A model generated the notes under the pieces. That model was given only the letters and a program-made list of their open reading frames with translations. It did no database searches and had not been told where the DNA came from. The position numbers and the translations under genes are program-made. Shown piece after piece: positions 2,101-24,148 of a stretch of 51,102 bases of DNA (position 1 is its first letter; each line of letters opens with the position of its first letter). This DNA comes from a bacterium (GTDB lineage Bacteria > Myxococcota_A > UBA9160 > UBA6930): contig JAAETT010000586.1 in the NCBI GenBank assembly GCA_024228115.1, forward strand, positions 1 to 51,102, written 5' to 3'.

Positions 2101-3080
2101 GCCTTACGATCCTCGGTGCCGGCTCGGTCGGGCTCACCCTGGCTGCGCGCCTCGCCCGGGGGGGAGTGCGGGTCCTGGTGCTCACCCGCCGCGAAGCCGC
2201 TGCACGCGCGTTGGCAGCCGGCCTTGTCGCCGAGCATCCGGCGGACGGCACGCGTTTCGAAGTCGAAGTCGAAGCTCGCTGCGCCGATCACGCAGAAGCG
2301 TGGCCCGACCAGCCCGTGCTCCTGTGCACGCGGGGTGAAGGGGTCGATGCCGCCGCGAAGTTGGTCGCGGGGCGCGCACCAGCGGCACCGCTCGTCACCT
2401 TCCAGAACGACGTCATCCACGAGGCGGTTGCGGCCCGGCACCACTCGGCGGTTCTGGGGGGCGTATGGCGAGAGACCTGCACGCGCACGGGCGATGCCCG
2501 TGTTCGTTTCCTCTACGACCGGCCCTCCCGGGCCATCCTGGGCCTGCACCCGAGCGGACCCAGCCCGGACGCCCACGCGATCGCGGCGCTCCTCGAGCGC
2601 GGCAACATTCGCAGCGGCGTCTCCGAATGCGTGGCCTTGGACAAATGGTTGAAGCTCTGCGTCAACCTGATGAGCACACCGAACGCTCTCATCCGTCGCG
2701 AAGACCACGCCGGCAGGGACTTCGTCGAGATCAAGGTCGGCCTGCTCGAAGAAGCCCGCACCGTCCTGGCCGCGGCGGCAATCGAAACCGGCTCCTGCGA
2801 TGGCCTCGACCGGTCGCTCGACGAAGAGATCGCGTACCAGCGCGCTTCATTGGAACGAGGCACGAGCGCCCGGCCCATTCCGCTCTACAACCAGGTCTGG
2901 TCTGCGCTCACGCGGCGCCTTCCCACCGAAGCCGACGCCTACCATCGCCGAATATGCGACCTCGGTGTCCAACACGGCGTGGCCACCCCGCTGAACCGCC
3001 GCGTGCTCGAGGCCCTTCTGCACGCTGCGCATGCACATACGGGCCCCGAATCGCTTACGGCCGCCGGCCTCCTGGGGTGA
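2097..3080 (+). CDS. ketopantoate reductase family protein (ApbA/PanE-like)
   Basis: A predicted 327-residue NADPH-dependent 2-dehydropantoate 2-reductase-like enzyme. The N-terminus has the Rossmann motif ILGAGSVGLTLAARLARGG. A lysine in the segment DKWLKLCVNLMSTPNAL sits where the family has its catalytic Lys followed by an Asn helix. The C-terminal all-helical domain (about 175-327) matches the family in length. PanE makes pantoate for coenzyme A, but many paralogues act on other 2-oxo acids and no other pantothenate gene is near. The start codon lies inside the stop of the M28 peptidase gene (ATGA), which implies translational coupling. Confidence 0.8.
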   Translation: MSLTILGAGSVGLTLAARLARGGVRVLVLTRREAAARALAAGLVAEHPADGTRFEVEVEARCADHAEAWPDQPVLLCTRGEGVDAAAKLVAGRAPAAPLVTFQNDVIHEAVAARHHSAVLGGVWRETCTRTGDARVRFLYDRPSRAILGLHPSGPSPDAHAIAALLERGNIRSGVSECVALDKWLKLCVNLMSTPNALIRREDHAGRDFVEIKVGLLEEARTVLAAAAIETGSCDGLDRSLDEEIAYQRASLERGTSARPIPLYNQVWSALTRRLPTEADAYHRRICDLGVQHGVATPLNRRVLEALLHAAHAHTGPESLTAAGLLG

Positions 3081-3088
3081 CGGCTCCC

Positions 3089-4018
3089 CTACGGGTGCCA
3101 CACCTCGGTGTCGGGGAAGAAGGCCTTCCACGCCAGCCAGTACGCCTCGACCACCTGGACACCCTCCGGAACTTCGTAGGCGAAGGTTGCGCTGTCTGGG
3201 TCGTAGACGAAGCGGATCTGCTTTCCGCCGAACTCGTCTTCTACCTTTCCGCCGGCGGCCGTGGCTACCGAGCCTAGATAGGCGCGCTGCTTGCCGTCGA
3301 CGGTGACGCCGAGGACCATTTCCTTCAGGTGATAGCTGCGATCCTCCGCTGCGACCGGAAACAAGAGCTTGTTCAGATCCCAATAGCGCCGAAACGGGCT
3401 CCTGGAGTAGTCGTGCACCTTCAGCGCAGGGCGGGTCAGGACCTTCGCGCGAGGATGGCGAGCCAGGATCCCTCCCAGGGTTTCCTGTCGGATCGGGAGC
3501 GGGCGCAACGTCGTACCCGTGCGAGGGCCGCTCAAAGCCCGCCCGTTGAACTGCTGCCAGAGGCTCTCGCTCTTCCGGTCGAAGAGCAGGAAACCATGAT
3601 TGTGGATCAGGCCCGATACACCGAAACTGGCGTTCTCACCGGCCACGGTCGCATCGAAGGCGCGCGGCACTCCGGCCAATGGATCGTAGGTCACGACGAC
3701 CGGCAGCTCGCCGAATCGGTCGTTCACGATCTGGTGGTACTCCATGAGATGCACTGGATACACACGCGTCGTATCGCCGACGGTGACGGCCAGGACCGGG
3801 GTATCGGGCTTCACCCATGTTGCCTCGGGCACGGGCACGAAGGTCGGCTCGTCGACCGACATGATTCCATCTTTTCCCGGGCCTCCGCCGAAGATCTGGT
3901 CCTTGGGGACCTTTGCCGCAGAGAGATCGAAGCCGTTGGTACCGGGCTTGGGTTCGGCAGAGGACGCGACATTGGCCGACAACAGCAAAACCAACCCCAG
4001 GCCGGTGACGCCCCTCAC
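3089..4018 (-). CDS. DUF3179 domain-containing exported protein
   Basis: A predicted 309-residue protein with an N-terminal hydrophobic signal (GLGLVLLLSANVASSAEP) followed by the DUF3179 fold. Landmarks are AVTVGDTTRVYPVHLMEYH, FGVSGLIHNHGFLLFDRKS and SLWQQFNGRALSGP. The function of this family is unknown. The GTG start at 4018 overlaps the bioA stop (GTGA). Longer in-frame extensions lie entirely inside bioA and look like arginine-rich shadow sequence. One oddity is the segment TYDPLAGVPRAFD: as I recall the family, many members have a TYCPL-type segment with cysteine there. The gene is co-directional with bioA and probably co-transcribed, but no link to biotin is evident. Confidence 0.8.
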   Translation of the reverse strand: MRGVTGLGLVLLLSANVASSAEPKPGTNGFDLSAAKVPKDQIFGGGPGKDGIMSVDEPTFVPVPEATWVKPDTPVLAVTVGDTTRVYPVHLMEYHQIVNDRFGELPVVVTYDPLAGVPRAFDATVAGENASFGVSGLIHNHGFLLFDRKSESLWQQFNGRALSGPRTGTTLRPLPIRQETLGGILARHPRAKVLTRPALKVHDYSRSPFRRYWDLNKLLFPVAAEDRSYHLKEMVLGVTVDGKQRAYLGSVATAAGGKVEDEFGGKQIRFVYDPDSATFAYEVPEGVQVVEAYWLAWKAFFPDTEVWHP

Positions 4019-5346: not shown

Positions 5347-6375
<1,029 letters not shown>

Positions 6376-6490
6376 TCTGCATTCCTTCGGGGGCGTGTGG
6401 GAGGCTCACCTTAGCACCCCGCTGGAGCGGGGCGGGTGGCCCACTAAAGCTTGGGCGGCGGCGCACCGAGGCTGCCTAGCGGGTGATGTC

Positions 6491-6979
6491 ATGCGAACGA
6501 TCGACGATTTCGAGCTGATTGAAAGCGTGTCTGCGGATGCGCTGGCGAGCCACCCCGTGTGGAGCCCCTGGGCTCCAGAACTCGACCGGGAGCGTGTGCT
6601 TGCCTGGGGTGTGTCAGAGGAAGAACTCGACCGTCAGATCGAGCTCTTCGAATCTTGCGGGCCCGTACCGTTGTACCCGGTCCTCGATCTTGCCGAGCTC
6701 GGTGATCGCAAGGACATGGTGGTTGCCGCCCGATTCGAGGCGGCCGATGGAGCGCGCCTCTGGGGATTCCTCCTCGAGCCTCACGCGTTCGGCATCTTCC
6801 ATCTCGGCGAGGAGTACTCGTTCAATCGCAACCTCCCGGCGTTCTCCGAGAGAGAAGCCGAACGTCTCGCAGCAGCCCTTGGGACCAGCGCCGACATGAT
6901 CTTTCCGCTCTTCTTCCGTGTCGACGACGAGGTGCCCGAGACGGCCGGCAACCAGGGCGAGATCACGCGCTTCTGGTAG
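6491..6979 (+). CDS. hypothetical protein
   Basis: A predicted 162-residue soluble, acidic protein that I do not recognise. The ATG at 6491 is preferred because the codons before it lie in the intergenic space divergent from the F420 oxidoreductase and read as low-complexity sequence. The protein opens MRTIDDFELIESVSADALAS and is rich in Glu, Asp, Phe and Leu. It contains a patterned segment (GFLLEPHAFGIFHLGEEYSF) likely to form beta strands, with no signal peptide or membrane segment. It is divergent from the F420 oxidoreductase gene and convergent with the lysE-like gene. Codon use looks like that of its neighbours. Confidence 0.65.
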   Translation: MRTIDDFELIESVSADALASHPVWSPWAPELDRERVLAWGVSEEELDRQIELFESCGPVPLYPVLDLAELGDRKDMVVAARFEAADGARLWGFLLEPHAFGIFHLGEEYSFNRNLPAFSEREAERLAAALGTSADMIFPLFFRVDDEVPETAGNQGEITRFW

Positions 6980-7059
6980 GAACCGGGCATCCCCCAGCCC
7001 TGCTGTCGATTCGAGAACACACGCTCAGGAAGACGCGTGTCAAACGCGTTCGAATCTCC

Positions 7060-7677
7060 TCAATCGGAACGGGAGGCGATCGCTAGCCGAAGCCCGGCGG
7101 CCACGAGAAAGCCGCCGCCAATGCGCTCGAGGCGATGCACCCAATCACCACTTGCGATCTCCCTGGCACGAGCGGCGGCAACCGCATACACGCCGAGCGC
7201 CAGTATCTCGATGGCCACAGAGCTCACGCCGAGAATGGCCACCTGGGCTCCCAGTGCGCGTTCCGGATCGAGAAACTGAGGCACCAGCGCCGTGAAGAAG
7301 ACAAGGCTCTTCGGATTTGCGCTCTGCACGATGAAGCCCCGGCTGAACGAACGGCCAAGGCGTGCAGTCTCTTCGTGTTGCGCCACGGATCGGTGCCGCG
7401 AGAAGATCGCGCGGGCGCCTAGATAGATCAGATAGGCCGCGCCAGCCCATTGGATGAGGTGAAAGAGCTGGTGCGATGCAACGATCACCGCGCCGATGCC
7501 AAGGGCCGAGAGTACGAAATAGAGCGTATTCGATGCCAGGATGCCCAGCCCAGCGCCGAACCCTCCGCCTGCGCCGCGGGCAAGCGAGACGGAAACGACC
7601 AACAACACGGCTGGCCCCGGGGTGAAGCAGAGCACCGCCTCGGTCACGCAGAATGCGAGCCAGGTCTCGAGAGGCAT
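7060..7677 (-). CDS. LysE/RhtB family amino acid exporter
   Basis: A 205-residue inner-membrane protein with about six hydrophobic segments and the LysE family N-terminal hallmark FTPGPAVLLVVSVSLARG, followed by GAGLGILASNTLYFVLSALG. Also typical are the IQWAGAAYLIYLGARAI helix and the central RGFIVQSANPKSLVFFTALVPQFL segment. Members export amino acids such as homoserine, threonine, lysine or leucine and are often annotated LysE family translocator. The substrate is not predictable. The gene is transcribed away from the carbonic anhydrase gene, leaving an intergenic gap of about 85 bp. Confidence 0.9.
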   Translation of the reverse strand: MPLETWLAFCVTEAVLCFTPGPAVLLVVSVSLARGAGGGFGAGLGILASNTLYFVLSALGIGAVIVASHQLFHLIQWAGAAYLIYLGARAIFSRHRSVAQHEETARLGRSFSRGFIVQSANPKSLVFFTALVPQFLDPERALGAQVAILGVSSVAIEILALGVYAVAAARAREIASGDWVHRLERIGGGFLVAAGLRLAIASRSD

Positions 7678-7720
7678 GACGGAAGCCTAGCGAAATCGGG
7701 CGGGAGCGAGCTTTGCGCCC

Positions 7721-7749
7721 TTCACCCGCCTGCGAGAGCCCGGTATATT
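7721..7749 (+). promoter_or_regulatory. candidate promoter for the carbonic anhydrase gene
   Basis: TTCACC at 7721-7726 and TATATT at 7744-7749 are separated by 17 bp and fit a sigma-70-like -35/-10 pair. The expected start of transcription would fall near 7756, only a few bases before the ATG at 7763. There is no clear Shine-Dalgarno sequence, so the message may be nearly leaderless. Confidence 0.4.
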
Positions 7750-7762
7750 GCGCAGCATCGAT

Positions 7763-8413
7763 ATGAGCGAACGAACCACAGAACTGTACGAGAAGATCTT
7801 CGCGAACAACCTCAAATGGGTCGCGGAAAAGACAGCCAACGACGCGAACTATTTCGAGCGGCTCTCCCAAACGCACGCCCCGGCGTTCCTCTTCATCGGC
7901 TGTGCCGACAGCCGTGTGCCGGCCAACGAGATCATGGGCCTGGATCCCGGCGAGGTCTTCGTTCACCGCAATGTGGCGAACATCGTCCCCAACACGGACA
8001 AGAACGTGCACTCGACCATCCAGTACGCGGTAGAGCACCTGGGAGTGCAGCACGTGATCGTATGCGGCCACTATGGATGTGGCGGCGTCGATGCCGCAAT
8101 GCAGTCTTCGGATCTAGGCCAGCTCAACGGGTGGCTGCATGAGATCCGGGACGTCTACCGTCTTCATCGCGACGAACTCGACGCCATCTCGGATCCACGC
8201 GCTCGAACCCGAAGACTCGTCGAACTCAATGTCCACGAGCAATGCATCAACGTGATCAAGACAGCATTCGTGCAGAAGAGCTACGAAAAGCTCGGCTATC
8301 CCATCGTTCATGGCTGGGTCTACGCGCTGGAAGACGGAATCCTGCACGATCTCGAGATCCCATTCGAAAAGACGCTCGAAATGGTCCGGGAGATCTACCG
8401 CCTGGACACCTAG
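7763..8413 (+). CDS. can: beta-class carbonic anhydrase
   Basis: A 216-residue zinc enzyme that interconverts carbon dioxide and bicarbonate in the cytoplasm. Zinc and active-site residues are all present: Cys47, Asp49 and Arg51 in IGCADSRVP, and His103 and Cys106 in CGHYGCGG. The segment FVHRNVANIVPNTDKN is also characteristic. The size and the C-terminal HGWVYALEDGILHDLE segment match the E. coli Can group. The ATG at 7763 was chosen over an upstream in-frame start at 7748 because it gives the usual N-terminus and leaves room for the -10 box. The gene stands alone and is followed by a long repeat-rich, gene-free block. Confidence 0.93.
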   Translation: MSERTTELYEKIFANNLKWVAEKTANDANYFERLSQTHAPAFLFIGCADSRVPANEIMGLDPGEVFVHRNVANIVPNTDKNVHSTIQYAVEHLGVQHVIVCGHYGCGGVDAAMQSSDLGQLNGWLHEIRDVYRLHRDELDAISDPRARTRRLVELNVHEQCINVIKTAFVQKSYEKLGYPIVHGWVYALEDGILHDLEIPFEKTLEMVREIYRLDT

Positions 8414-8475
8414 GCATGGGGGGGGACTGCAACCGCCCTCATTGATTCGGATGCCGCTTCGCTTCTCGTGGTGGA

Positions 8476-8646
8476 TCGCGGGGCGGGGGGCGGCCAGCGC
8501 GGAATGGCTCGGCCGGGGCTCTGGGGGCCGCGCAAGACGTGGACGTGGGTTCGCTTACGCGGCTCTCGCCGCTAGCGAACGAGTACACGGCCAACAGACG
8601 AGATGCCTGCGCTTTATTTCCTTGCTGGCCGCCCCCCGCCCCGCGA
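8476..8646. repeat. 23-bp perfect inverted repeat (pair A)
   Basis: Bases 8476-8498 and 8624-8646 are exact reverse complements over 23 bp. The arms are very G-rich on the left and C-rich on the right. Between them lies a second hairpin, 8549-8580, with GTTCGCT/AGCGAAC outer arms, a GCGGC/GCCGC inner stem and a TCTC loop. Confidence 0.9.
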
Positions 8647-8826
8647 CGAGCCGTGCAAGCAACCAGGTTCGCTTCGCCGGGGCTGGGTGCAGGTCGGGCG
8701 GAAATAAGGCGCAGGCATAGGTTCCCTTTGGCGTGCGCATTGGTTGCCCTGCGGCGAAAGCCGCGAAGGGCAACACCCTGTCCAACCCTCTACGCGGCCA
8801 CCCGACCCTCGGCCGAGCCATTCCGC
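8499..8826. repeat. 17-bp perfect inverted repeat (pair B)
   Basis: Bases 8499-8515 and 8810-8826 are exact reverse complements over 17 bp. The left arm directly abuts the left arm of pair A. The right arm lies far downstream and overlaps the right arm of pair D by six bases, so these stems compete. Confidence 0.9.
8603..8718. repeat. 19-bp inverted repeat (pair C)
   Basis: Bases 8603-8621 and 8700-8718 are reverse complements at 18 of 19 positions. The arms are the most AT-rich part of the block. They flank the right arm of pair A and the left arm of pair D. Confidence 0.85.
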
Positions 8827-8850
8827 CCGGCCTGTACCCAGCCCCGGCGA
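8674..8850. repeat. 30-bp inverted repeat (pair D) enclosing a GAAA-loop hairpin
   Basis: Bases 8674-8703 and 8821-8850 are reverse complements at 28 of 30 positions. Within the enclosed segment, 8743-8774 folds as an 8-bp stem (GTTGCCCT/AGGGCAAC) stacked on a 5-bp GCGGC/GCCGC stem closed by a GAAA tetraloop. The two mismatches in the long arms would be tolerated as GU pairs or small bulges in RNA. Confidence 0.85.
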
Positions 8851-8892
8851 CTCAGCTCAACGCATGAGAAGCAAAGCGACCTCTCGTCGCAG

Positions 8893-11448
8893 CTACCCGG
8901 TTGCGGGCGGTTCTTCTTCCGAGGCCTTTGCGACCAGGGGTAGGTGAATCCGGAAGAGGGTTCCGTCGGGGTCGGTTTCCACGTCCAACGTTCCCCCGTG
9001 TCGTTCCACGATGCCGTGGGAGATCGAGAGGCCGAGTCCGGTTCCCTGACCCACGGGCTTGGTGGTGAAGAACGGCTCGAAGATGCGCCCGAGCACATCG
9101 TCCGGAATTCCCGCGCCATCGTCGGAGAACTCGAGAATCACTCCGTCCGGTATCGAGCGCGTGACGATCCGTACCGTGCCCTCGCCATCGAGTGCGTCGC
9201 AGGCGTTCATCACGAGATTCATGAACACCTGGTTGAGCTGAGCCGGATAGCACCTCACTTTCGGAAGTTTGCCGAATTCCCGCTCGAGGGTAATGCCATC
9301 CGTGAAACGCGGTTCCATCAATGCAAGCGTGCGTTCAATCTCCTCGTTCAGATTCGCGTCTGCGATCTCGGCCTGATCCATACGGGAGAACGTTCGCAGA
9401 TCGAGCACGATCTTCTTGACTCGCTCGGTCCCTTCGCGGCTGCGGGAGAGCAGTTTTCGAATCGCCTCCCGGGGCTTCTGGAAATCTGCACCGGCCTCCT
9501 GCGCCAGCACCAGCTTCTTGACGAAATCGTCGAGTAGCTGGAGGTTGGCGTGCACGAAGCCGATCGGATTGTTCAGCTCGTGAGCCACGCCAGCGACCAA
9601 CTGGCCGAGACTTCGAAGCTTCTCACTCTGCATCAGCTGTGCCTGTGCTTCCTGGAGTTCATTCGTGCGTGCCTCGACCCGAGCTTCGAGGGTCTCGTTC
9701 AGCTTGGCGATCTCGTCGAACGCCTGGGCGTTCTCGATCGCAATCGCACTCTGATTGGCCAGCGTCCGCAGCAGTTGCCGATCGTCGGGTCCAAGGCGTT
9801 CCCCCGAGAGCTTCTCTCCTACGGCGATCAAGCCGAGCAGATCCACTCCGAACAGGATCGGCACCAGCAACTTGACGTGCAGCAGGTCGAAGACATCCCA
9901 GCATTCTTCGCGGGTTTCCGGATCGGCGAGGTCATCGAAATCCGTGCGGGCCAGCTCCTGCCTGCGCATCCAGAGATGCTTGCCGACCGGGTGATCGATC
10001 GGCAACTCGAGAACAGTCGCCTCCTCGTCGAAATCTCCTCGCCACGCCACGGGCACGAGGGATCGCTCATCATCGCCTAGCAGAAGTACCATGGCCCGCT
10101 CCACACCCATCGTATCCGTCACAGCAAGCAGCAGGCGATCGCTGACCTCCTCGAGTGACAACATCGAAACCATCGCCTCCGAGATTTCGCGTACGGCATT
10201 GCGATAGGCGGCCCGATCCCGATCGAAGAGCCGATCGACCAGGGTTTGCAGACGGTCGCGCAGGGGGTTGAAAGCGAGAATGGCAAAGAACAGGAACGTG
10301 ACAGAGAAGAGCGGCGAGTTGGCCGTGACGTTGAACTGCCGGAAGGCCGCGTCTGCACCGGTGATCAAGCCTGCGAACACACCTGTGATGGCAAGTGTGG
10401 CTGCACCGTAGGCCGCGGAGGATCGCGCCAGGCCCCGCATGTCGAAGAGGCCCCGCCGCACGATGCCGTACGCCATCGCGCCGGGGAAAACCACGAACCA
10501 GACCATCGCCAGGGACATCGGGAAGGGCAACGAGACCATCGTCTGTGCGAGCAACGCCAACATGACGGGAACGAAACTCACGAGAGCAGCCGTGAGCACG
10601 AGGTCCGCAGCTGCGGTCTGTCCGGAACCGCGCCTCTTGTATCGCTCGTGCACCAACACCAGGAAAGCGATGGCGCAGCCCCCGGCGCCCAGTCCGTATC
10701 CCAGGCCCGCGAGCAAACCCGGCGGAATCCCCAGCGGTCGCTCGAAGATCACCGCCACTGCAATCGCCAGGGCCAACAGGTAGGGAATGAGGCGAAGCCG
10801 ATGTCGCCGGGAGACCCATTGTGGCTCCAATGGATAGATCGTGAAGAGATGGAACATCGACGCGCCGATCAACGGCATGGTGATGACCATGCGCTCGTAA
10901 CCGAACGGCGCGTCATAGGTGTTCACGCCGCCGAATAGCGCTGTCGCCATCGCGCAAGAGAAGAGCAGGAAAGCCCATGATTCGGCGTGATCCGCTCGCG
11001 AGCTCCACACAAAGAGGCCGAGCAACAAATAGGCGGAGCCAGCGACGGCCAGGGCGGCAAAGATCGGGATCGTGAAACTCTGATAGGCAGAGCGACGAGC
11101 ACGCGGCTGGAGTGAAAGATCGAGGATTCCCGTCCCCGTTTCGATCCGGTAGGTCACTGGCTTTCCGGCAACGATCCGCTCCCAGCCGCGCTCGCGGTAC
11201 CACTCCTGGACGACCAGGCCATCCACCTCGAGCACCCGGTCGCCCTCGCGAACGCCGAGAGCGCGCGCCTCGTCGGAGACGTCGTTGACGATGGCCGTTC
11301 TTCCGATCGTGCTCGTATGCAGGGGCGGATCTACGATCCGGGGCGTCGCCAACTGGCCCCAGATCGCCAGCACGAACGCACTGACGGCCCATACGACGCC
11401 CAGGGCAGACGTCGTACGTCTGAAACGTCTGGTCGCGTCCGGGCTCAT
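8893..11448 (-). CDS. membrane sensor histidine kinase (PDZ-like, multi-TM, GAF, HisKA, HATPase), copy 1
   Basis: An 851-residue orphan sensor kinase. After a first membrane helix (about 13-32) comes a PDZ-like extracytoplasmic segment (LGVREGDRVLEVDGLVVQEW), then about seven to eight membrane helices to roughly residue 390. A GAF-like domain follows (about 420-570), then a coiled linker. The HisKA helix has the phospho-acceptor His623 in VAGVAHELNNP. The ATPase domain has N box NQVFMNLVMNACDAL, G1 box FSDDGAGIPDD and EPFFTTKPVGQGTGLGLSIS, all intact. No response regulator is adjacent. Its ATG overlaps the stop of the upstream paralogue by 4 nt, so the two are one transcription unit. The sensed signal is unknown. 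Confidence 0.9.
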   Translation of the reverse strand: MSPDATRRFRRTTSALGVVWAVSAFVLAIWGQLATPRIVDPPLHTSTIGRTAIVNDVSDEARALGVREGDRVLEVDGLVVQEWYRERGWERIVAGKPVTYRIETGTGILDLSLQPRARRSAYQSFTIPIFAALAVAGSAYLLLGLFVWSSRADHAESWAFLLFSCAMATALFGGVNTYDAPFGYERMVITMPLIGASMFHLFTIYPLEPQWVSRRHRLRLIPYLLALAIAVAVIFERPLGIPPGLLAGLGYGLGAGGCAIAFLVLVHERYKRRGSGQTAAADLVLTAALVSFVPVMLALLAQTMVSLPFPMSLAMVWFVVFPGAMAYGIVRRGLFDMRGLARSSAAYGAATLAITGVFAGLITGADAAFRQFNVTANSPLFSVTFLFFAILAFNPLRDRLQTLVDRLFDRDRAAYRNAVREISEAMVSMLSLEEVSDRLLLAVTDTMGVERAMVLLLGDDERSLVPVAWRGDFDEEATVLELPIDHPVGKHLWMRRQELARTDFDDLADPETREECWDVFDLLHVKLLVPILFGVDLLGLIAVGEKLSGERLGPDDRQLLRTLANQSAIAIENAQAFDEIAKLNETLEARVEARTNELQEAQAQLMQSEKLRSLGQLVAGVAHELNNPIGFVHANLQLLDDFVKKLVLAQEAGADFQKPREAIRKLLSRSREGTERVKKIVLDLRTFSRMDQAEIADANLNEEIERTLALMEPRFTDGITLEREFGKLPKVRCYPAQLNQVFMNLVMNACDALDGEGTVRIVTRSIPDGVILEFSDDGAGIPDDVLGRIFEPFFTTKPVGQGTGLGLSISHGIVERHGGTLDVETDPDGTLFRIHLPLVAKASEEEPPATG

Positions 11449-14012
11449 GCGGCGCCCTCGGCATTGGCACCCGCCTGTTCGAGCGCTTCTGCCGGCGGCT
11501 CGAAGGGCAGGTGCAGAACGAAGGTCGTTCCGACACCCGCCTCCGATTCGACCTCCATCGTGCCTCCATGCCTCTCGACGATCCCGTGCGAGAGCGAGAG
11601 CCCGAGGCCCGTTCCCTGGCCCACCGGCTTCGTCGTGAAGAATGGATCGAAGACCTGGCTCTTGACCTCCTCGGGCATCCCCGGGCCGTCATCCCCGAAC
11701 TCGAGACGGACTCCATCTCCTTCGGGCCGCGTACGAATGGTGATCTTTCCGCGACCCTCCATCGCATCGCATGCATTCATGAGCAGGTTCATGAACACCT
11801 GGTTCAGCTGCCCCGCGAACCCACGGACTTGCGGTAGTTCCTCATAGTCACGGTCCACCTCGACCCCGGCCTTCAGGCGCGGCTCCATCAATGTGAGCGT
11901 GCGATCGATTTCCTCGTTGAGGCAGACCTGTTGAAGGTCCGCATGATCCGTGCGCGAGAAGGTGCGGAGATCCTGGACGATCTGCTTGACGCGATCCGTG
12001 CCCTCACGGCTTCGGCCCAGGAGCTTCTCGATGGCCTGTCGTGATTTCTGGCGGCGTTCCGCATCGGAACTCGAGGAGACCAACCTCTCGACGTAGCCGT
12101 CGAGGAGCTGAAGGTTCGCATGAACGAAGCCGATCGGGTTGTTCAGCTCATGGGCCACGCCGGCCACCATCTGGCCCAGGCTGCGCATCTTTTCGCTCTG
12201 CACCAACTGGGCCTGAGTCTCACGCAGTTCTCGCGTACGTTCGTCGACCCGGACTTCGAGCGTTTCGTTCAGCTTGGCGATTTCGTCGAACGCCTGGGCG
12301 TTCTCGATCGCGATCGCGCTCTGGTTTGCCAAGGTCCGAAGCAGTTCCCGCTCATCCGGACCGAGCCTCTCAGCTGTGAGCTGACGTCCGACGGCGATCA
12401 CTCCGAGAAGATCGACGCCGAAGAGGATGGGCACCAACAGCTCCACCTCCAACGTGTCGAACACATCGCGGCACTGCTCGCGGAGGTCCGGATCCGCTTC
12501 CTCATCGAAATCCACCCGGGCCAGCTCGGTGCGCCGCATCCACAGGTTGCGACAGATGGGATGCTCGGCATCGATCGAGAAGGGCTCCAGATCCTCATCC
12601 CAATCGCCGCGCGCGGCCTCGGTACGAAACGTCTCGCCAGCCTCTCCGACCAGAAGAACCAGGGCGCGCTCTGCTCCCATCGTATCGGTCACGGCGATCA
12701 GGATACGCTCCACTATCTCGCGTACCGAGAGCATCGAAACCATCGCCTCGGAGATTTCGCGGACTGCATCCCGATAAGCGACGCGATCGCGATCGAAAAT
12801 CCGGTCGACCATGTTCTGGAGCCGGCCGCGCAGCGGATTGAAGACCAGGATCGCAAAGAACAGGAACACGACCGAGGCCAACGGCGATCGCGCGTCCATA
12901 TCGAAACGCCCCACCAATGCGTCCGCGAACGTGATGAAGAGCGCGAAGGCACCCGTGATGCCAAGTGTGACCGCGCCGTAGGCCGCCGAACTTCGAGCCA
13001 ACAAGCGCATGTCCAGGATCTCGGAGCGCAGTATTCCGTAGCCCAGGGCCAACGGAAACATGAAGAAGCCGAGCAGAGCGAGCGTCCAGGGGAGACGGGT
13101 CCCGACTGTCGCGTGAAGGATGATCGCGACGATGACCGGGATGAAACTGACGAGCGCGCCGACCACGGCGATCGTCGAGCGGTCGGCAACGAGCCCTCTG
13201 GGCAACCGGGCTCGTTCGGATACGACGATTCCGACGCCCAGCATGCCCATCGCCAACGCGAAGAACGTCATTGTTGGATTCACGAGAGGCATCAAGCCCG
13301 AGATGTAGGGCGAGACGACACCAAGCCCACCCAGGAGCAAAGCGGCCCCGTAGATGGCGGGCCGGATTTGTGGACGCCCTGCGATCCAGCGGGGCACCGT
13401 TGGATAGACCGAGAAGAGATGAAACGAAGAAGCACCCATCAAGGGCACCGTGATCGCCACCAGACTCCAATTCACGGGATCCAATGTGCCAGCGAGAAAG
13501 AGCATCGCCGCGGTCGAGCTGCAGAAGAGCATGAGTGCCCAGGCTTCCTCGCGAGCACTTCGCAGTTGGAAGACGATCGCTCCGATGACCAGATAGATCA
13601 GGCCCACCGCTGGAACCGCCACGCGAATGAGGCGCTCGCTCGGAAAGGGGGGCAGTCCTGCCGGGCGCGGAACGAGCATCACGTCATGGCGGCTGCCATC
13701 CACGCGTTGGATCCCGTACTGGTTCGCCGCACCCTCCCGCAGATGCGAACTGCCGCGGGCCAGCCATTCATCCACCCGCTGGCCATCGATCGAGATCCAC
13801 CGGTCCCGGTTGCGAAGACCCGCCGCCTCGGCCTCGGGTGAAACCGCATGGATGACGTGCCAGCCAGCTGCGCTCGAGAACGAGAACGGAGGCAGGGGCG
13901 CGTCTCGCAGTCGAAGCTGCGAGCGAACCCCCGCGAACAGCGCCAGCAGGGCCCAGCACAATACGAGGGCCGCGGTCAGGCGTCTAAATCGGGCCGTCGA
14001 GCCGGGGCTCAT
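11445..14012 (-). CDS. membrane sensor histidine kinase (PDZ-like, multi-TM, GAF, HisKA, HATPase), copy 2
   Basis: An 855-residue paralogue of the gene that follows it, with the same domain order: signal-anchor helix, PDZ-like segment (AAGLRNRDRWISIDGQRVDEW), a membrane block of about eight helices, GAF-like domain, HisKA with His621 in VAGVAHELNNP, and an intact ATPase domain (FGDDGPGMPEE, GQGTGLGLSLS). The segment around LANQSAIAIENAQAFDEI and the H box are nearly identical in the two proteins. The membrane and PDZ-like parts have diverged, which suggests tandem duplication with change of the sensory half. It is the first gene of the pair. No regulator or output gene is beside it. Confidence 0.9.
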   Translation of the reverse strand: MSPGSTARFRRLTAALVLCWALLALFAGVRSQLRLRDAPLPPFSFSSAAGWHVIHAVSPEAEAAGLRNRDRWISIDGQRVDEWLARGSSHLREGAANQYGIQRVDGSRHDVMLVPRPAGLPPFPSERLIRVAVPAVGLIYLVIGAIVFQLRSAREEAWALMLFCSSTAAMLFLAGTLDPVNWSLVAITVPLMGASSFHLFSVYPTVPRWIAGRPQIRPAIYGAALLLGGLGVVSPYISGLMPLVNPTMTFFALAMGMLGVGIVVSERARLPRGLVADRSTIAVVGALVSFIPVIVAIILHATVGTRLPWTLALLGFFMFPLALGYGILRSEILDMRLLARSSAAYGAVTLGITGAFALFITFADALVGRFDMDARSPLASVVFLFFAILVFNPLRGRLQNMVDRIFDRDRVAYRDAVREISEAMVSMLSVREIVERILIAVTDTMGAERALVLLVGEAGETFRTEAARGDWDEDLEPFSIDAEHPICRNLWMRRTELARVDFDEEADPDLREQCRDVFDTLEVELLVPILFGVDLLGVIAVGRQLTAERLGPDERELLRTLANQSAIAIENAQAFDEIAKLNETLEVRVDERTRELRETQAQLVQSEKMRSLGQMVAGVAHELNNPIGFVHANLQLLDGYVERLVSSSSDAERRQKSRQAIEKLLGRSREGTDRVKQIVQDLRTFSRTDHADLQQVCLNEEIDRTLTLMEPRLKAGVEVDRDYEELPQVRGFAGQLNQVFMNLLMNACDAMEGRGKITIRTRPEGDGVRLEFGDDGPGMPEEVKSQVFDPFFTTKPVGQGTGLGLSLSHGIVERHGGTMEVESEAGVGTTFVLHLPFEPPAEALEQAGANAEGAA

Positions 14013-18478: not shown

Positions 18479-19753
18479 ATGCAGCCGGAAACCTCGCTTC
18501 CGGAGCTCCGCACGGAGATTCCCGGACCCAGCTCCCGGGCGCTCGCCCTGCGACTGGCGCGGGTCGAGAGCCGGAACGTCACCTGCCTCTCACCGACACC
18601 TCCGATCTTCTGGGAGAAGGCCGAGGGCGCCAACGTATGGGATGTGGATGGCAACCGCTTCGTCGATCTCGGCGGCGGCTTTGGCGTGGCGAATGCTGGC
18701 CATGCCCACCCTCTCGTCGCCGCTGCCGTTGCCGACCAGGCGGGTCGCCTGATGCACGCGATGGGCGATGTGCATCCTCCCGCCGTGAAGGTCGAGCTGC
18801 TCGAAGCGCTCGCCGCCCTCTTCCCCGGCGGTGGACCGGCACGCACGGTCCTCAGTTCGTCGGGCTCCGACGCAGTCGAAACCGCCCTCAAGACCGCACT
18901 CCTCGCGACCGGCCGCCCGGGAGTGATCGCCTTCGAAGGCGGCTACCACGGGCTGGCTCTGGGCGCTCTGGATTCCACCTGGCGCGACGATTTCCGCGCA
19001 CCCTTCGCGGGACGCATTCCCAACCGGACGTTCTTCGCGCGCTTCGGCGACCTGGATGATGTGGTCCGCAGCGCAGAGAAGGGCGGTGATGAGATCGGCG
19101 CAGTTCTCGTCGAGCCGGTTCAAGGCCGCGGTGGCGAGCGGATCCCGCCGGCCGGTTTTCTTGCAGGCCTGCGCCGGCTCTGCGATGAGCGAGGCTGGCT
19201 GCTGATCGCCGACGAGGTGTACACCGGCTTCGGACGAACAGGCCGCACCTTCGCCTGCGAGAACGAGAACGTCGTTCCCGACCTCTTGTGCGTCGCCAAG
19301 GGCCTGGCTTCCGGCATGCCCATCTCAGCATGCATAGGCCGCGCCGAGGTCATGGACGCCTGGCCGCTCTCCCATGGCGAAGCCCTCCACACGCAGACGT
19401 TTCTCGGGCACCCGCCCGGATGTGCCGCGGCATTGGCCTCGTTGGCCGTCCTCGAAAAAGAGGGCCTCGCCAAGCGCTCGTCCGAACTCGGCGCGTGGGC
19501 CCTCGAACGGATATCCCGATCGACCGCCGGCCTGGCCTCGGTTCGCGAATGCCGAGGTCTCGGGTTGATGATCGGTGTCGAATGCCTGGAGCCCGATCGT
19601 GCCGCACGGGTCACCCATGAAGCCCTGGCCGAGGGCTTCATCCTGTTGCCTTCGGGTGACCGCGGCGACGTGCTTTCGATCACGCCTCCGTTGACGATTG
19701 GACGCTCCGCTCTCGAGGCCGGTCTCGACACGCTTGCCCGGTTGCTGCAATGA
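18479..19753 (+). CDS. class III PLP-dependent aminotransferase
   Basis: A 424-residue fold-type I aminotransferase of the acetylornithine/GABA aminotransferase group. Features are VWDVDGNRFVDLGGGFGVAN, the PLP-phosphate-binding SSSGSDAVETALKTA, AFEGGYHGLALGAL, the Asp motif IADEVYTGFGRTG and the Schiff-base lysine in CVAKGLASGMPISA. The family moves amino groups to or from terminal aldehydes and keto acids. The ATG at 18479 was chosen because the extra codons before it lie in the folK promoter gap. The stop overlaps the next start (ATGA), tying it to the LuxE- and LuxC-like genes. A role in converting the aldehyde made by those enzymes into an amine is an inference. Confidence 0.9.
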   Translation: MQPETSLPELRTEIPGPSSRALALRLARVESRNVTCLSPTPPIFWEKAEGANVWDVDGNRFVDLGGGFGVANAGHAHPLVAAAVADQAGRLMHAMGDVHPPAVKVELLEALAALFPGGGPARTVLSSSGSDAVETALKTALLATGRPGVIAFEGGYHGLALGALDSTWRDDFRAPFAGRIPNRTFFARFGDLDDVVRSAEKGGDEIGAVLVEPVQGRGGERIPPAGFLAGLRRLCDERGWLLIADEVYTGFGRTGRTFACENENVVPDLLCVAKGLASGMPISACIGRAEVMDAWPLSHGEALHTQTFLGHPPGCAAALASLAVLEKEGLAKRSSELGAWALERISRSTAGLASVRECRGLGLMIGVECLEPDRAARVTHEALAEGFILLPSGDRGDVLSITPPLTIGRSALEAGLDTLARLLQ

Positions 19754-20841
19754 CGGCGCCGGAGGCCGAGGTGCTGCGGTGGATGCGTGAAACCCCGGAC
19801 GAGCGGGACGACGAACGTTTCCTGCGTCTGGCTCTCGCCGTGTTCGCCCATCAATTCGCTCACTGCGAGCCTTATCGCCGCTTCTGCGAGGGCCGCGGCC
19901 GGACACCCGACACGATTCGAAGCTGGACGGAAATTCCGGCGGTCCCGACCGGGGCGTTCAAGGAGCTTCGCCTCGCGAGCTTCCCCGAGGAGCGGACGCG
20001 CCACGTCTTCCGTACGAGTGGAACCGCGACCGACCGTCGCGGCGAGCTCCACCTCGAAAGCCTGGAAGCGTACGAGGCTTCTCTCGTGCCCAGCTTCGAA
20101 CGAGGCATGCTCCCGGACCTGCCCGACGAACTCCCGGTTCGGATGCTCAGCATGGTGCCCTCTCCGGCAGAAGCTCCAGACTCCTCTCTTTCCCACATGT
20201 TGGGCGTGATGCACGAGCGACGCGGCGACACCGAGAGCCGCTTCCTCGTCGAGGACGGTGAACTCCGGGAGCAGATGACGAAGGACGGGTTGGAGACATC
20301 CGCAAAGAGCGATTTGCCGATCTTGTTATGCGGTACAGCCTTCGCCTTCGTACACCTGCTCGACGCAATGGCGGCTTCCGGCCAACACCTCGTCCTACCG
20401 CCGAGCGCCCGCATCATGGAAACCGGGGGCTTCAAGGGCCGTGCGCGAAGCATGGATCGCGACGCCCTGTATGCCTGGATCACGGATCGTCTGGGCGTAC
20501 CGACTGAGCGCATCGTCAATCAGTACGGGATGACCGAGTTGGCAAGTCAGTTCTACGACACCGTCCTGTCCCGACCGGGAGAGCCAAGGCGAAAACGCAT
20601 CCCGCCTTGGGTACGCGTCCGCATGGTCGATCCGGAGAGAGGAAACGAAGTAGGAAGGGGCGAAGCCGGTGTGATCCGGATCCTCGATCTCGCGAACATC
20701 GGCAGCATCCTCGCGATCCAGACCGCCGACCTCGGCACGACCCAGGGAGACGGGTTCGAAGTCCTTGGGAGGGCCCGAGGAGCCGAAGCCCGCGGTTGCT
20801 CGATCGCGGCCGATGAGATGCTCAGTGCCGCGCGCCCCTGA
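19750..20841 (+). CDS. LuxE/PaaK-like acyl-protein synthetase
   Basis: A 363-residue member of the LuxE family of adenylate-forming enzymes, which activate a carboxylic acid with ATP and pass the acyl group to a protein thiol for reduction. Characteristic parts are the substrate-entry segment VPTGAFKELRLASFP, the phosphate-binding FRTSGTATDRRGELH and the C-terminal NQYGMTELASQFYD with the later domain around LDLANIGSILAIQTADLG. The length matches LuxE. It overlaps the aminotransferase stop by 4 nt and its own end overlaps the luxC-like start by about 29 nt. No luxA or luxB accompanies it, so light production is not implied. The natural acyl substrate is unknown. Confidence 0.85.
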   Translation: MTAPEAEVLRWMRETPDERDDERFLRLALAVFAHQFAHCEPYRRFCEGRGRTPDTIRSWTEIPAVPTGAFKELRLASFPEERTRHVFRTSGTATDRRGELHLESLEAYEASLVPSFERGMLPDLPDELPVRMLSMVPSPAEAPDSSLSHMLGVMHERRGDTESRFLVEDGELREQMTKDGLETSAKSDLPILLCGTAFAFVHLLDAMAASGQHLVLPPSARIMETGGFKGRARSMDRDALYAWITDRLGVPTERIVNQYGMTELASQFYDTVLSRPGEPRRKRIPPWVRVRMVDPERGNEVGRGEAGVIRILDLANIGSILAIQTADLGTTQGDGFEVLGRARGAEARGCSIAADEMLSAARP

Positions 20842-22066
20842 GATACAGAACACCTGGGCCAGGCTTCGCGAAGCGGGCCGCGCCCTGGGCGCACGGGACC
20901 AGGAGGCCAACCTGGGAGCATTGGCAATGCTCCTGGATGAGCTCGCGCTTCCGAGCTCGGAAATTCGTCGACACCTCGCGACCACATTGCCCGAAGCCAC
21001 GGGATTCCACCCAGCGAACTTGCGAGCTGGCCTCGAGCTGGCCCTCGCGAATTGGACGGGCGAAGCCTTGCGCAACCTCGTCCGTAGGGAACTGGGCGAG
21101 GATGCATCCCAACGCGCCCGCGGCTTCGACTCCACCGCAGTGCTTCTCGGAGGCGCGCTTCCGATGCCGAGCATTCTCTCGCTCGTCGCACCTCTGGTCG
21201 TCGGATCCCCCGTCTTTGCCCGCAGCGGCCGACACGATTCCGTGACCGCCGCGACCATCGCCGCTGCGTTGAACCGGTTGGATCCGGAACTCGGCGCATG
21301 CCTCTCCCTGACCACGATCTCTCGCGACGAGCGGGAAGCGCTGGATGCGTTCCTTCGAGCGGAATGCGTCGTCGCCACGGGCTCCGACGAAACGCTCGCC
21401 GAGATTGCCGGGCGAATCGATCCGGGAACGCGCTTCGTGGGTCATGGGCATCGTTTGTCGGTGGCGGTGATCGGCGCCGAAGCCGACCCGGCCCAGGTGG
21501 CGGACGCGCTCGCACTCGACGTGGCATTGTGGGATCAACTCGGCTGCCTCTCACCGATCGCGGCCTGGGTGCTTGCTCCAGATGGCGAGGTACCGGCCTC
21601 CCTCGAAGCCGAGTTGGTTCGGGCCTTCGGGCAAGTGGCTCAAAAGCTACCTCGTGGCACGATCTCGCCTGAAGCCGGAGCGACGCTCGCCCAGGAACGT
21701 GACGGTGCAGAGCTTCGTGCAGCGTCGAATGAGCGCGTGCGTCTGCACGTCGGCGAGGGCTGGACCCTCGTCATCGAAAGCTCTTCCTTGACGGGTCCGG
21801 CGCCGCTGCATCGCTTCCTCCGCCTGCATCCGGTGCCCGATCTTGCCTCCCTGCAAACCAGCCTGGCACCCCTCGCTCCCCGCTTGGCTGCCGTGGGGCT
21901 GGCCGCCGGGCCCGACGAGAAGGCCCGGATCCTCGAGGCCCTGGGGCCGCTGGCGCCTTCGCGCATCGCCCCGCTAGGGCGAATGCAGGCGCCTCCTCTT
22001 GGCTGGCATCATGATGGGCAAGGTGTGCTGTGGCCGCTGGTCCGTTTCACCGATATCGAGGTGTAG
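20813..22066 (+). CDS. LuxC-like acyl-CoA/acyl-protein reductase
   Basis: A predicted 417-residue NADPH-dependent reductase of the LuxC family (aldehyde dehydrogenase fold), which reduces an activated acyl group to an aldehyde. Supporting parts are GALPMPSILSLVAPLVVGSP (cofactor region), VATGSDETLAEIAGRIDP and FVGHGHRLSVAVIGAEAD. The cysteine in WDQLGCLSP is a candidate acyl-enzyme nucleophile. The ATG at 20813 gives a 29-nt overlap with luxE-like. A GTG at 20825 is possible. With the LuxE-like neighbour it would form a fatty acid reductase complex, and the aminotransferase gene at the head of the unit is unusual company. Confidence 0.85.
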   Translation: MRCSVPRAPEIQNTWARLREAGRALGARDQEANLGALAMLLDELALPSSEIRRHLATTLPEATGFHPANLRAGLELALANWTGEALRNLVRRELGEDASQRARGFDSTAVLLGGALPMPSILSLVAPLVVGSPVFARSGRHDSVTAATIAAALNRLDPELGACLSLTTISRDEREALDAFLRAECVVATGSDETLAEIAGRIDPGTRFVGHGHRLSVAVIGAEADPAQVADALALDVALWDQLGCLSPIAAWVLAPDGEVPASLEAELVRAFGQVAQKLPRGTISPEAGATLAQERDGAELRAASNERVRLHVGEGWTLVIESSSLTGPAPLHRFLRLHPVPDLASLQTSLAPLAPRLAAVGLAAGPDEKARILEALGPLAPSRIAPLGRMQAPPLGWHHDGQGVLWPLVRFTDIEV

Positions 22067-22571: not shown

Positions 22572-24148
22572 TTGTTTCCGCTGTTAGGCGCTCATCCGGC
22601 CCCCGTACTTGCGGGATTTGCGGCTGGCATCGGCTGCCTCACCCTGCTCGTCCGACTACGCCCGGGCCACGTCCCATTGGATGGCTTGCTCGTCCTCGTG
22701 CTCGGTCTCCTCGTCACCTGGCCCTCCCCTTCTCCATCGAAACCGGACCACCCGAGGCCGGCGCCGCGCTCGGTGGTGGTTCTCCTGCTCGACACGACAC
22801 GAGCGGACGCACTCGGCGCCTACGACGCCGGCCCTGGCGTGACTCCTGTGCTCGATCGCCTGGCCGCAGGAGGCAGTGTGTTCGAACAGGTCGTGAGTAC
22901 CTCGCCGTGGATTGCGCCCTCCCACGCATCGATGTTCACCGGGCATTTCCCGCGCACCCACGGTGTGCGAAACGGCACGCCGCGCCGACTGGATGCCGCC
23001 TTCGAAACGACAGCGGAACGGCTCGCCACTGCGGGCTACCAGACCGCTGCCATTTCCTCGAACAGCTGGTTGCGGGTCGCGAACATCGTGCAGGGTTTTC
23101 AGCATTTCGAAGAAGTGAACCACCTCCACCGGGACAAACTCCTGCTGTCACGAGCGATGCGCTACTGCGGTCTCGGCTGGGAGCAGTGGATCGACCGGGG
23201 TGCCTCGGAAGCGGAGACCGCGATCGACACCTGGATGGCCAGCTCGATGCGGATCGTCCCTTCTTCTTGTTCCTGAATCCCTTCGAAGCCCACAATCCCT
23301 ACCTCCCACCGCTGCGTGATCGCGGCGTTCAGGGCCCGGGTAGCTGGCTCCGGGGCATCCGTGCCATGCGCGGATACCACCCGGTGCGTTGGCATTCGAA
23401 CCCGCCGAGGCAACCCTGGCGCGTTGCGGCCACACGGGCGCTCTATCGCAGCGGTGTTCGCTATCAGGATCGGCCCATCGGTCGGATCCTCGAGGTGATC
23501 CGCAGCCACGTGGAGCTCGACGACGTTCTTCTCATCGTCACATCCGATCACGGTGACAACCTTGGGGAAGCCGATCGTTGGGGCCATCAATTCGACTTGA
23601 ACGATGCGCTGATCCGGGTGCCGTTCATCGCACGGGCTCCGGATGTGTTTCCCGCCGGCGAGCGGATCCGGGAAGCCCACCAGACCCTCGACCTGCACGC
23701 GACCTTGATCGATTGGGCGGGCCTCGAGCAGGACGACAGCCCCGCCCAGAGCCTCCTCCCCGATGCGCGGCAACCCCGCGAAGCGACCTACGCCGAGGTC
23801 TACCCGGAAGCCTGGATGCTCAGCCGTATCGATCCGGCTGGAAGCCGCAGCGCGGACGAGCTCGATACGCCCGTCTGGGCGATCCGCCGCGATGGGCACA
23901 AGCTCGTCGTGCGGCGCGGCGGTGAGCGGTTGTACGACCTGGACGCCGACCCGGGAGAAGCTCGAGACGCCCTCGCCGAGGATCCGGAGCGAGCCGCCGC
24001 CCTCCGACGCGAGCTCGACGCCTGGCTGGAGCGCTTTCCCGGCCCCCGCCCAGACGCTGTCGCTCCCCAGCCGACCCTGACCCCCTCCGACTCGGAAGCG
24101 CTGGATCCCGAGACCCGCCGCCAGCTCGAGGCACTCGGCTATATGTGA
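22572..24148 (+). pseudogene. sulfatase/alkaline-phosphatase superfamily gene, frameshifted
   Basis: Two adjoining frames together make one sulfatase-family protein of about 525 residues. The first part (22572 to about 23245) has two membrane helices, then the metal-binding VVVLLLDTTRADALG and PSHASMFTGHFPRTHGV. The second part, in another frame from about 23246, continues with ADRPFFLFLNPFEAHNPYLP, VTSDHGDNLGEADRWGHQ and the family's C-terminal LYDLDADPGEARD. A one-base loss in the AGCTCGATGCGG region near 23245 explains the break. The residue in the nucleophile position (Cys, Ser or Thr in this superfamily) is Ile114, codon ATT at 22911. Both facts point to a non-functional gene, though a sequencing error at the shift remains possible. 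Confidence 0.75.

Follow-up and report, generated by a model that had tools for sequence, protein, structure and literature searches.

The window analysed here is a stretch of 51,102 nucleotides (contig JAAETT010000586.1, assembly GCA_024228115.1) from a bacterium of the GTDB lineage Myxococcota_A; UBA9160; UBA6930. It contains three intact open reading frames on the forward strand, which encode a class III aminotransferase (hereafter AT), a LuxE-family acyl-adenylating enzyme and a LuxC-family acyl-thioester reductase, at the positions named in a preliminary description of the sequence (Table 1). The LuxE start codon overlaps the AT stop codon by 4 bases, and LuxE and LuxC overlap by 17–29 bases, depending on whether LuxC starts at ATG 20813 or GTG 20825; AT starts at ATG 18479, with GTG 18449 open as well. 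Family membership is given by scores of 321 bits for AT (gathering score 30.5), 74.4 bits for LuxE (24.9) and 145.8 bits for LuxC (21), together with the pyridoxal phosphate (PLP) lysine of AT, the C-terminal cysteine of LuxE and the DQxxC cysteine of LuxC. None of the three proteins reaches the cut-off of an NCBIfam equivalog. Against the known γ-aminobutyrate (GABA), acetylornithine and putrescine aminotransferases AT scores at best 312 bits (a GABA aminotransferase, cut-off 639), and against the luminous equivalogs LuxE scores 67 bits (cut-off 550) and LuxC 34 bits (cut-off 750). As described before, neither luxA nor luxB was seen adjoining the trio, which does not belong to the fatty acid reductases of bioluminescence.

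The residues expected for catalysis are retained in all three proteins. Lys274 of AT is invariant in 28 sequences, Cys245 of LuxC (motif DQLGC) in 29, and Cys350 of LuxE is likewise invariant; the two cysteines align with the DQxxC cysteine of luminous LuxC and the C-terminal cysteine of luminous LuxE, respectively, as found in a luxCDABE reporter. The AlphaFold model of LuxE (predicted local distance difference test, pLDDT, 89) has as its nearest solved structures the PaaK phenylacetate-CoA ligases and the phenazine protein EhpF; its tail of residues 346–363, which carries Cys350, is disordered, as would fit a mobile acyl carrier. The only solved relative of LuxC is a long-chain acyl-protein thioester reductase (7xc6). 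The AT model (pLDDT 90) adopts the GABA aminotransferase fold, and its nearest structures are GABA aminotransferases. In those enzymes a Glu–Arg gate handles the carboxylate of the donor. In every member of the AT family from Myxococcota, Verrucomicrobiota and Gemmatimonadota, the Glu is replaced by the family-specific Arg217 (motif EPVQGRGG in the window) and the Arg by Ser or another residue other than Arg; the window protein has Ser (VLSITPP) at the position of the usual carboxylate-binding Arg. E. coli GabT, PatA and ArgD, as well as the best aminotransferases of genomes that carry QueC, retain both the gate Glu (EPxQGEGG) and the gate Arg. Judged by EPxQGRGG and the loss of the usual Arg, AT is one orthologous group across the three phyla. 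The genome of the window encodes 11 class III aminotransferases.

Table 1. Coordinates of the trio, its key residues and the other features discussed (window, the 51,102-nucleotide stretch; other loci numbered individually)
Feature	Locus	Position	Strand	Assignment
AT, class III (GABA-aminotransferase-like) PLP aminotransferase	window	18479..19753	+	Pfam PF00202 Aminotran_3, E 1e-95
LuxE-family acyl-adenylating enzyme	window	19750..20841	+	PF04443, E 1e-20; acyl-accepting C350
LuxC-family acyl-thioester reductase	window	20813..22066	+	PF05893, E 2e-42; catalytic C245
AT R217	window	19127-19129	+	EPVQGRGG
AT K274	window	19298-19300	+	PLP lysine
LuxE C350	window	20797-20799	+	C-terminal Cys
LuxC C245	window	21545-21547	+	DQLGC
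Sulfatase-family gene	window	22572-24148		two frames
TPP riboswitch	L197	7683-7815		Directly upstream of LuxE-LuxC(-SDR, ABC or NCS2 transporter) operon; L197, L198, L199, L201 and L202 are Azospirillum, Pantoea and Lactiplantibacillus plasmids
TPP riboswitch	L198	7755-7884		as L197
TPP riboswitch	L199	1390-1497		as L197
TPP riboswitch	L201	7724-7851		as L197
TPP riboswitch	L202	7685-7817		as L197
LuxE and LuxC in one open frame	L045 (genome G020)	1152-3518		possible natural fusion
Second LuxE/LuxC pair	L075 (G000:C47)	11069-13461	-	genome of the window
FolE2-QueE-QueC island	L328 (genome G120)	5716-8970	-	
QueC-like PP-loop protein	L321	7316-7975		trio-bearing Verrucomicrobiota
QueC-like PP-loop protein	L322	7451-8107		trio-bearing Verrucomicrobiota
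QueF-like protein	L332	5150-5731	-	families f22 and f24
QueF-like protein	L333	5151-5735	-	families f22 and f24

The preliminary description read the trio as a route from an acid through an aldehyde to an amine, and this is the natural reading of the three families, given the retained acyl-carrying cysteines and PLP lysine, with published precedents from acid to amine. The luxE/luxC reductase of bioluminescence shares the Pfam families, the acyl-accepting cysteine of LuxE and the catalytic cysteine of LuxC; the trio differs from it by the lack of luxAB and luxD and by a distant LuxE clade. Acid activation, reduction to a semialdehyde and amination by a class III aminotransferase also occur in ArgB-C-D and LysZ-Y-J, which however activate by acyl phosphate, employ another reductase family and act on carrier- or acetyl-protected aliphatic substrates. 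The published precedents are the tambjamine enzymes TamA/TamH (PMC9594044) and the prodigiosin enzyme PigE (PMC8341465), which follow the same chemical logic, an activated acid being turned into an aldehyde and then a primary amine with a class III aminotransferase; there, acyl carrier protein (ACP)-bound or thioester substrates with fatty chains are handled by acyl-ACP-reductase-type reductases and fused domains, whereas the trio consists of separate proteins of the LuxE and LuxC families.

The check for the same gene order in other genomes that had been proposed for the trio showed it in nearly every relative read, often with 4-base overlaps between the genes. LuxC was found in 57 of 61 relatives from the order of the window, and AT-LuxE-LuxC stood in identical order and strand in about 38 loci read, wherever the contig held all three genes; here most junctions between the genes are 4-base overlaps. 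A search for relatives of the window LuxE gave 322 loci, the best 80 of which were read for gene context; among these 80 the trio is kept, barring contig ends, Gemmatimonadota (LuxE and LuxC without adjoining AT) and Sumerlaeota (LuxE without adjoining AT). Beyond the order, the sister family f12 carries it, as do many further Myxococcota, 13-Mb genomes among them, and the Verrucomicrobiota loci L150 and L151. This conservation is far beyond chance, and the trio is a core operon of the GTDB order of the window. In one genome (G020), LuxE and LuxC lie in a single open frame without interruption; they may be naturally fused, which would support direct hand-over between them. An apparent case of LuxC without AT and LuxE (L054, genome G014) was discarded, as it reflects an N gap in the assembly with LuxE elsewhere on the contig.

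The distribution of the trio points to queuosine synthesis. In the usual pathway, 7-carboxy-7-deazaguanine (CDG) is converted by QueC to 7-cyano-7-deazaguanine (preQ0), which QueF reduces to 7-aminomethyl-7-deazaguanine (preQ1) (PMC5372724). We searched the same 379 Myxococcota genomes for LuxE (profile E<=1e-30), full-length QueC (E<1e-50), QueF (E<1e-19) and QueA, and compared the lists by hand. LuxE is encoded in 291 genomes, strong full-length QueC in 55 (four more have partial or weak matches) and strong QueF in 47. LuxE and strong QueC occur together in only 3 genomes against 42 expected (Fisher p 3e-36), and LuxE and QueF in none against 36 expected (p 7e-36); since the genomes are related, these p values, which ignore phylogeny, overstate independence. 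The alternation spans about 14 families with QueC and no LuxE and about 40 with LuxE. Within the order of the window, LuxE is present in 76 of 80 genomes and QueF in none, while for QueC there are just fragments or weak matches in three.

Enzymes on either side of this gap are kept. QueA, whose substrate is preQ1 in tRNA, is found in 354 of the 379 genomes, and QueE in 79 of the 80 genomes tested; the genome of the window has both (QueE at 2.4e-89) and gave no QueC or QueF match in the profile search. In trio genomes outside the order QueE is mostly near-canonical (253–294 bits), and Tgt adjoins QueA in order members and in genome G346. Thus the trio is found in genomes that lack QueC and QueF yet retain QueE and QueA, as in a route that replaces the two enzymes. 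At the Verrucomicrobiota locus L150, a QueE above its curated cut-off lies directly upstream of AT-LuxE-LuxC. Two kinds of weak match were left out of the counts. QueF matches in families f22 and f24 lack, in our reading, the usual CPxTGQPDF cysteine; these QueF-like proteins (L332, L333) keep the QPDF and SLK motifs with the catalytic cysteine apparently missing. QueC matches at E 1e-3 to 1e-8 cover about 60 N-terminal residues within longer proteins and were taken as other PP-loop enzymes.

The aminotransferase follows the same pattern independently of linkage. Its profile scores 402–513 bits in all 21 LuxE-positive Myxococcota tested outside the order, genome G173 excepted; in all 16 genomes that have QueC and no LuxE it does not exceed 305 bits or gives no match. 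In family f18 (ten genomes) and others, AT is not beside LuxE, yet it is encoded at full strength elsewhere in the genome (414–466 bits), and four Gemmatimonadota genomes, which lack QueC, have it at 511–539 bits. Because AT co-occurs with LuxE even where the two are unlinked, it belongs to the same pathway. At the Gemmatimonadota loci L323, L324, L326 and L327, AT directly follows a gene resembling enoyl-ACP reductase (FabI) and is not beside LuxE-LuxC.

We therefore propose, at a probability of about 0.78, that the trio would be a non-orthologous replacement of QueC and QueF that leads from CDG to preQ1. The conversion of the carboxylate of CDG to an aminomethyl group gives exactly preQ1, and the activation, reduction and transamination it takes are the activities of the three families. 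CDG is suggested as the substrate because QueE, which makes this heteroaromatic carboxylic acid, is directly upstream of the trio in L150. From the observed gene order, residues, co-distribution and QueC/QueF gap we infer the substrate, aldehyde, product, thioester relay and cofactors of the following putative route. CDG supplied by QueE would be adenylated by LuxE with ATP to CDG-AMP, an activation of CDG that is established chemistry for QueC, and the acyl group would pass onto Cys350 in the flexible C-terminal tail as a thioester. It would then move to Cys245 of LuxC and be reduced with NAD(P)H to the aldehyde 7-formyl-7-deazaguanine, which AT would transaminate with PLP to preQ1. Finally, preQ1 would be inserted into tRNA by Tgt, and QueA and QueG/QueH would complete queuosine. 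LuxE is accordingly a candidate CDG-activating enzyme, LuxC a candidate acyl-LuxE reductase and AT a candidate 7-formyl-7-deazaguanine aminotransferase. Compared with the canonical pathway (FolE, QueD, QueE, QueC, QueF, Tgt, QueA, QueG/QueH), the proposed start and end are the same, QueE and QueA are kept and Tgt was seen. The canonical route, however, proceeds through an amide and the nitrile preQ0, made by QueC and reduced by QueF, whereas the trio is proposed to act through an acyl thioester, an aldehyde and transamination without preQ0.

Besides the relatedness of the genomes, several observations weigh against the replacement of QueC and QueF by the trio. Three genomes combine LuxE with QueC. 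G173 has QueC and lacks AT, and its LuxE groups apart, within another supported clade that also holds second copies from G260 and G304; for these reasons it probably does another job. G120 has intact LuxE and AT plus a FolE2-QueE-QueC island; the island also holds a second QueC-like PP-loop gene and looks like a 7-deazaguanine side pathway. In G192, whose assembly has 810 contigs, QueC lies on a single one of them. Moreover, two trio-bearing Verrucomicrobiota genomes carry a QueC-like protein (72–74 bits, cut-off 150), which is the weakest point of the argument from L150. In both L321 and L322 this divergent PP-loop protein is encoded beside a UbiD-like gene. The QueE of the order is itself divergent, reaching 67 bits (cut-off 206) in its best NCBIfam match, which is QueE, as are all its best curated matches. 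A que gene adjoins the trio at L150 only, and not at L151 or the Myxococcota loci read, and in about 35 genomes both LuxE and strong QueC are missing.

A rival reading is that the trio makes another small amine, one with no relation to queuosine, with the anticorrelation to QueC and QueF stemming from shared ancestry and preQ1 or queuine being salvaged. Genomes without preQ0 synthesis that depend on salvage are known (PMC5372724), and the profile counts are not independent. Such salvagers, however, typically lose queD, queE and queC together (PMC5372724), whereas QueE is nearly universal here; genomes with QueC and genomes with LuxE alternate across many families, and AT tracks the pattern even when unlinked. 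We regard this reading as unlikely.

The closest plasmid-borne relatives of the window LuxE (35–42% identity) are found in operons with LuxC and a short-chain dehydrogenase/reductase (SDR), accompanied by NMT1-type ATP-binding cassette (ABC) or NCS2 transporters: LuxE-LuxC-ABC transporter-SDR in Azospirillum and Priestia, LuxE-LuxC-SDR in Pantoea and NCS2 permease-LuxE-LuxC-SDR in Lactiplantibacillus. A thiamin pyrophosphate (TPP) riboswitch above the Rfam gathering score precedes five of the six plasmid clusters. This points to operons that reduce a heteroaromatic acid to the alcohol; the acid is supposedly the thiamin pyrimidine carboxylate, and the operons are probably an undescribed salvage route for this thiamin precursor. 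Their LuxE belongs to the same supported clade as that of the trio (96/98), again with an adjoining LuxC. The trio could by analogy convert 4-amino-2-methylpyrimidine-5-carboxylate through the aldehyde to aminomethylpyrimidine, which TenA can convert to hydroxymethylpyrimidine (HMP). This we consider highly improbable. The operons under thiamin control have transporters and an SDR, leading to an alcohol, in place of the aminotransferase, leading to an amine, and form a separate subclade; moreover, a thiamin role leaves the complementarity with QueC and QueF unexplained. No TPP riboswitch was matched by Rfam in the window or in the trio loci L150, L151, L132, L136, L138, L144, L145 and L148, which sets the trio apart from TPP-regulated operons. 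A thiamin role was rejected for the trio, the riboswitches being found only beside its SDR-type cousins.

These cousins and the structural neighbours PaaK and EhpF of the LuxE model fit an aromatic or heteroaromatic acid as substrate. EhpF (PDB 3hgu/3l2k), of phenazine (griseoluteate) synthesis, shares 12% identity with LuxE and serves another pathway, in which it adenylates a heteroaromatic acid for reduction. More broadly, the LuxE/LuxC clade marked by TGGFKG could be a general heteroaromatic-carboxylate reductase, which would yield preQ1 from CDG without preQ0 when paired with AT, and HMP for thiamin from a pyrimidine carboxylate when paired with an SDR under TPP riboswitches; we hold the evidence for this wider proposal to be evenly balanced.

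The neighbourhood of the trio varies among lineages, and neighbour clustering found no recurring partner gene in other families. In the order, the trio is flanked by a divergent folK, with cysH beyond, on one side and by the rrf2-suf operon on the other; a folate role was rejected, as folK adjoins the trio only within the order. Downstream of LuxC the window has a membrane protein gene and a sulfatase-family gene, from which a lipid or envelope product had been considered possible. Since only part of the genus has these genes adjoining LuxC, and neither L037 of the same genus nor other families have them at this place, they are a genus-level insertion outside the trio. The sulfatase gene is indeed broken, since near 23.25 kb it passes from one frame into another, and is a single frame in L036 of the same genus; the split is either a recent lesion or an assembly error. 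A lipid pathway, in which a fatty aldehyde formed by LuxE and LuxC is converted by AT to a fatty amine that goes into an envelope lipid or natural product, would agree with the long-chain acids used by true LuxE and LuxC and with the class III aminotransferases that turn fatty aldehydes into amines in tambjamine synthesis (PMC9594044). We nevertheless consider it very unlikely, given that neither a lipid gene nor a carrier protein is conserved beside the trio in the loci read, that its LuxE clade is far from luminous LuxE with relatives in TPP-riboswitch operons that hold small-molecule transporters, and that its distribution is complementary to that of QueC and QueF; these relatives and this distribution both point to a heteroaromatic acid instead.

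Other LuxE/LuxC clades were seen as well. The genome of the window has a second pair (G000:C47) among genes for CDP-glucose dehydratase-like, C-methyltransferase-like, RfbC-like and glycosyltransferase proteins; it belongs to a distant clade and likely serves sugar biosynthesis. An O-antigen role for the trio was rejected, the pair among sugar genes being of a different LuxE clade. A third clade (L221, L217, L334), with aconitase/isopropylmalate-dehydratase-like genes near L221 and L334, is probably another acid reductase pathway.

In the open-access literature, to which the search was confined (subscription papers and preprints lay outside it), we found no paper on queuosine together with LuxE, on 7-formyl-7-deazaguanine, on oarX, or on a TPP riboswitch with an acyl-CoA reductase, and no alternative route is discussed in a QueC family review of 2026. 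The trio thus appears to be a new route inside a known pathway, built from known enzyme families and apparently undescribed in that literature.

In summary, our analysis of a conserved AT-LuxE-LuxC operon suggests an alternative way to a near-universal tRNA modification, queuosine, whose bacterial pathway is treated as complete. If the proposal is true, most Myxococcota, probably Gemmatimonadota and some Verrucomicrobiota would make preQ1 without QueC, QueF or preQ0. Genes at present labelled as bioluminescence or fatty-acid enzymes would have their annotation corrected, predictions of obligate salvagers of queuosine precursors would change, and a testable set of enzymes that convert an acid to an amine on a heteroaromatic ring would be at hand. 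Should the clade prove to be a general heteroaromatic-carboxylate reductase, a single enzyme platform would explain two unknown metabolic steps.

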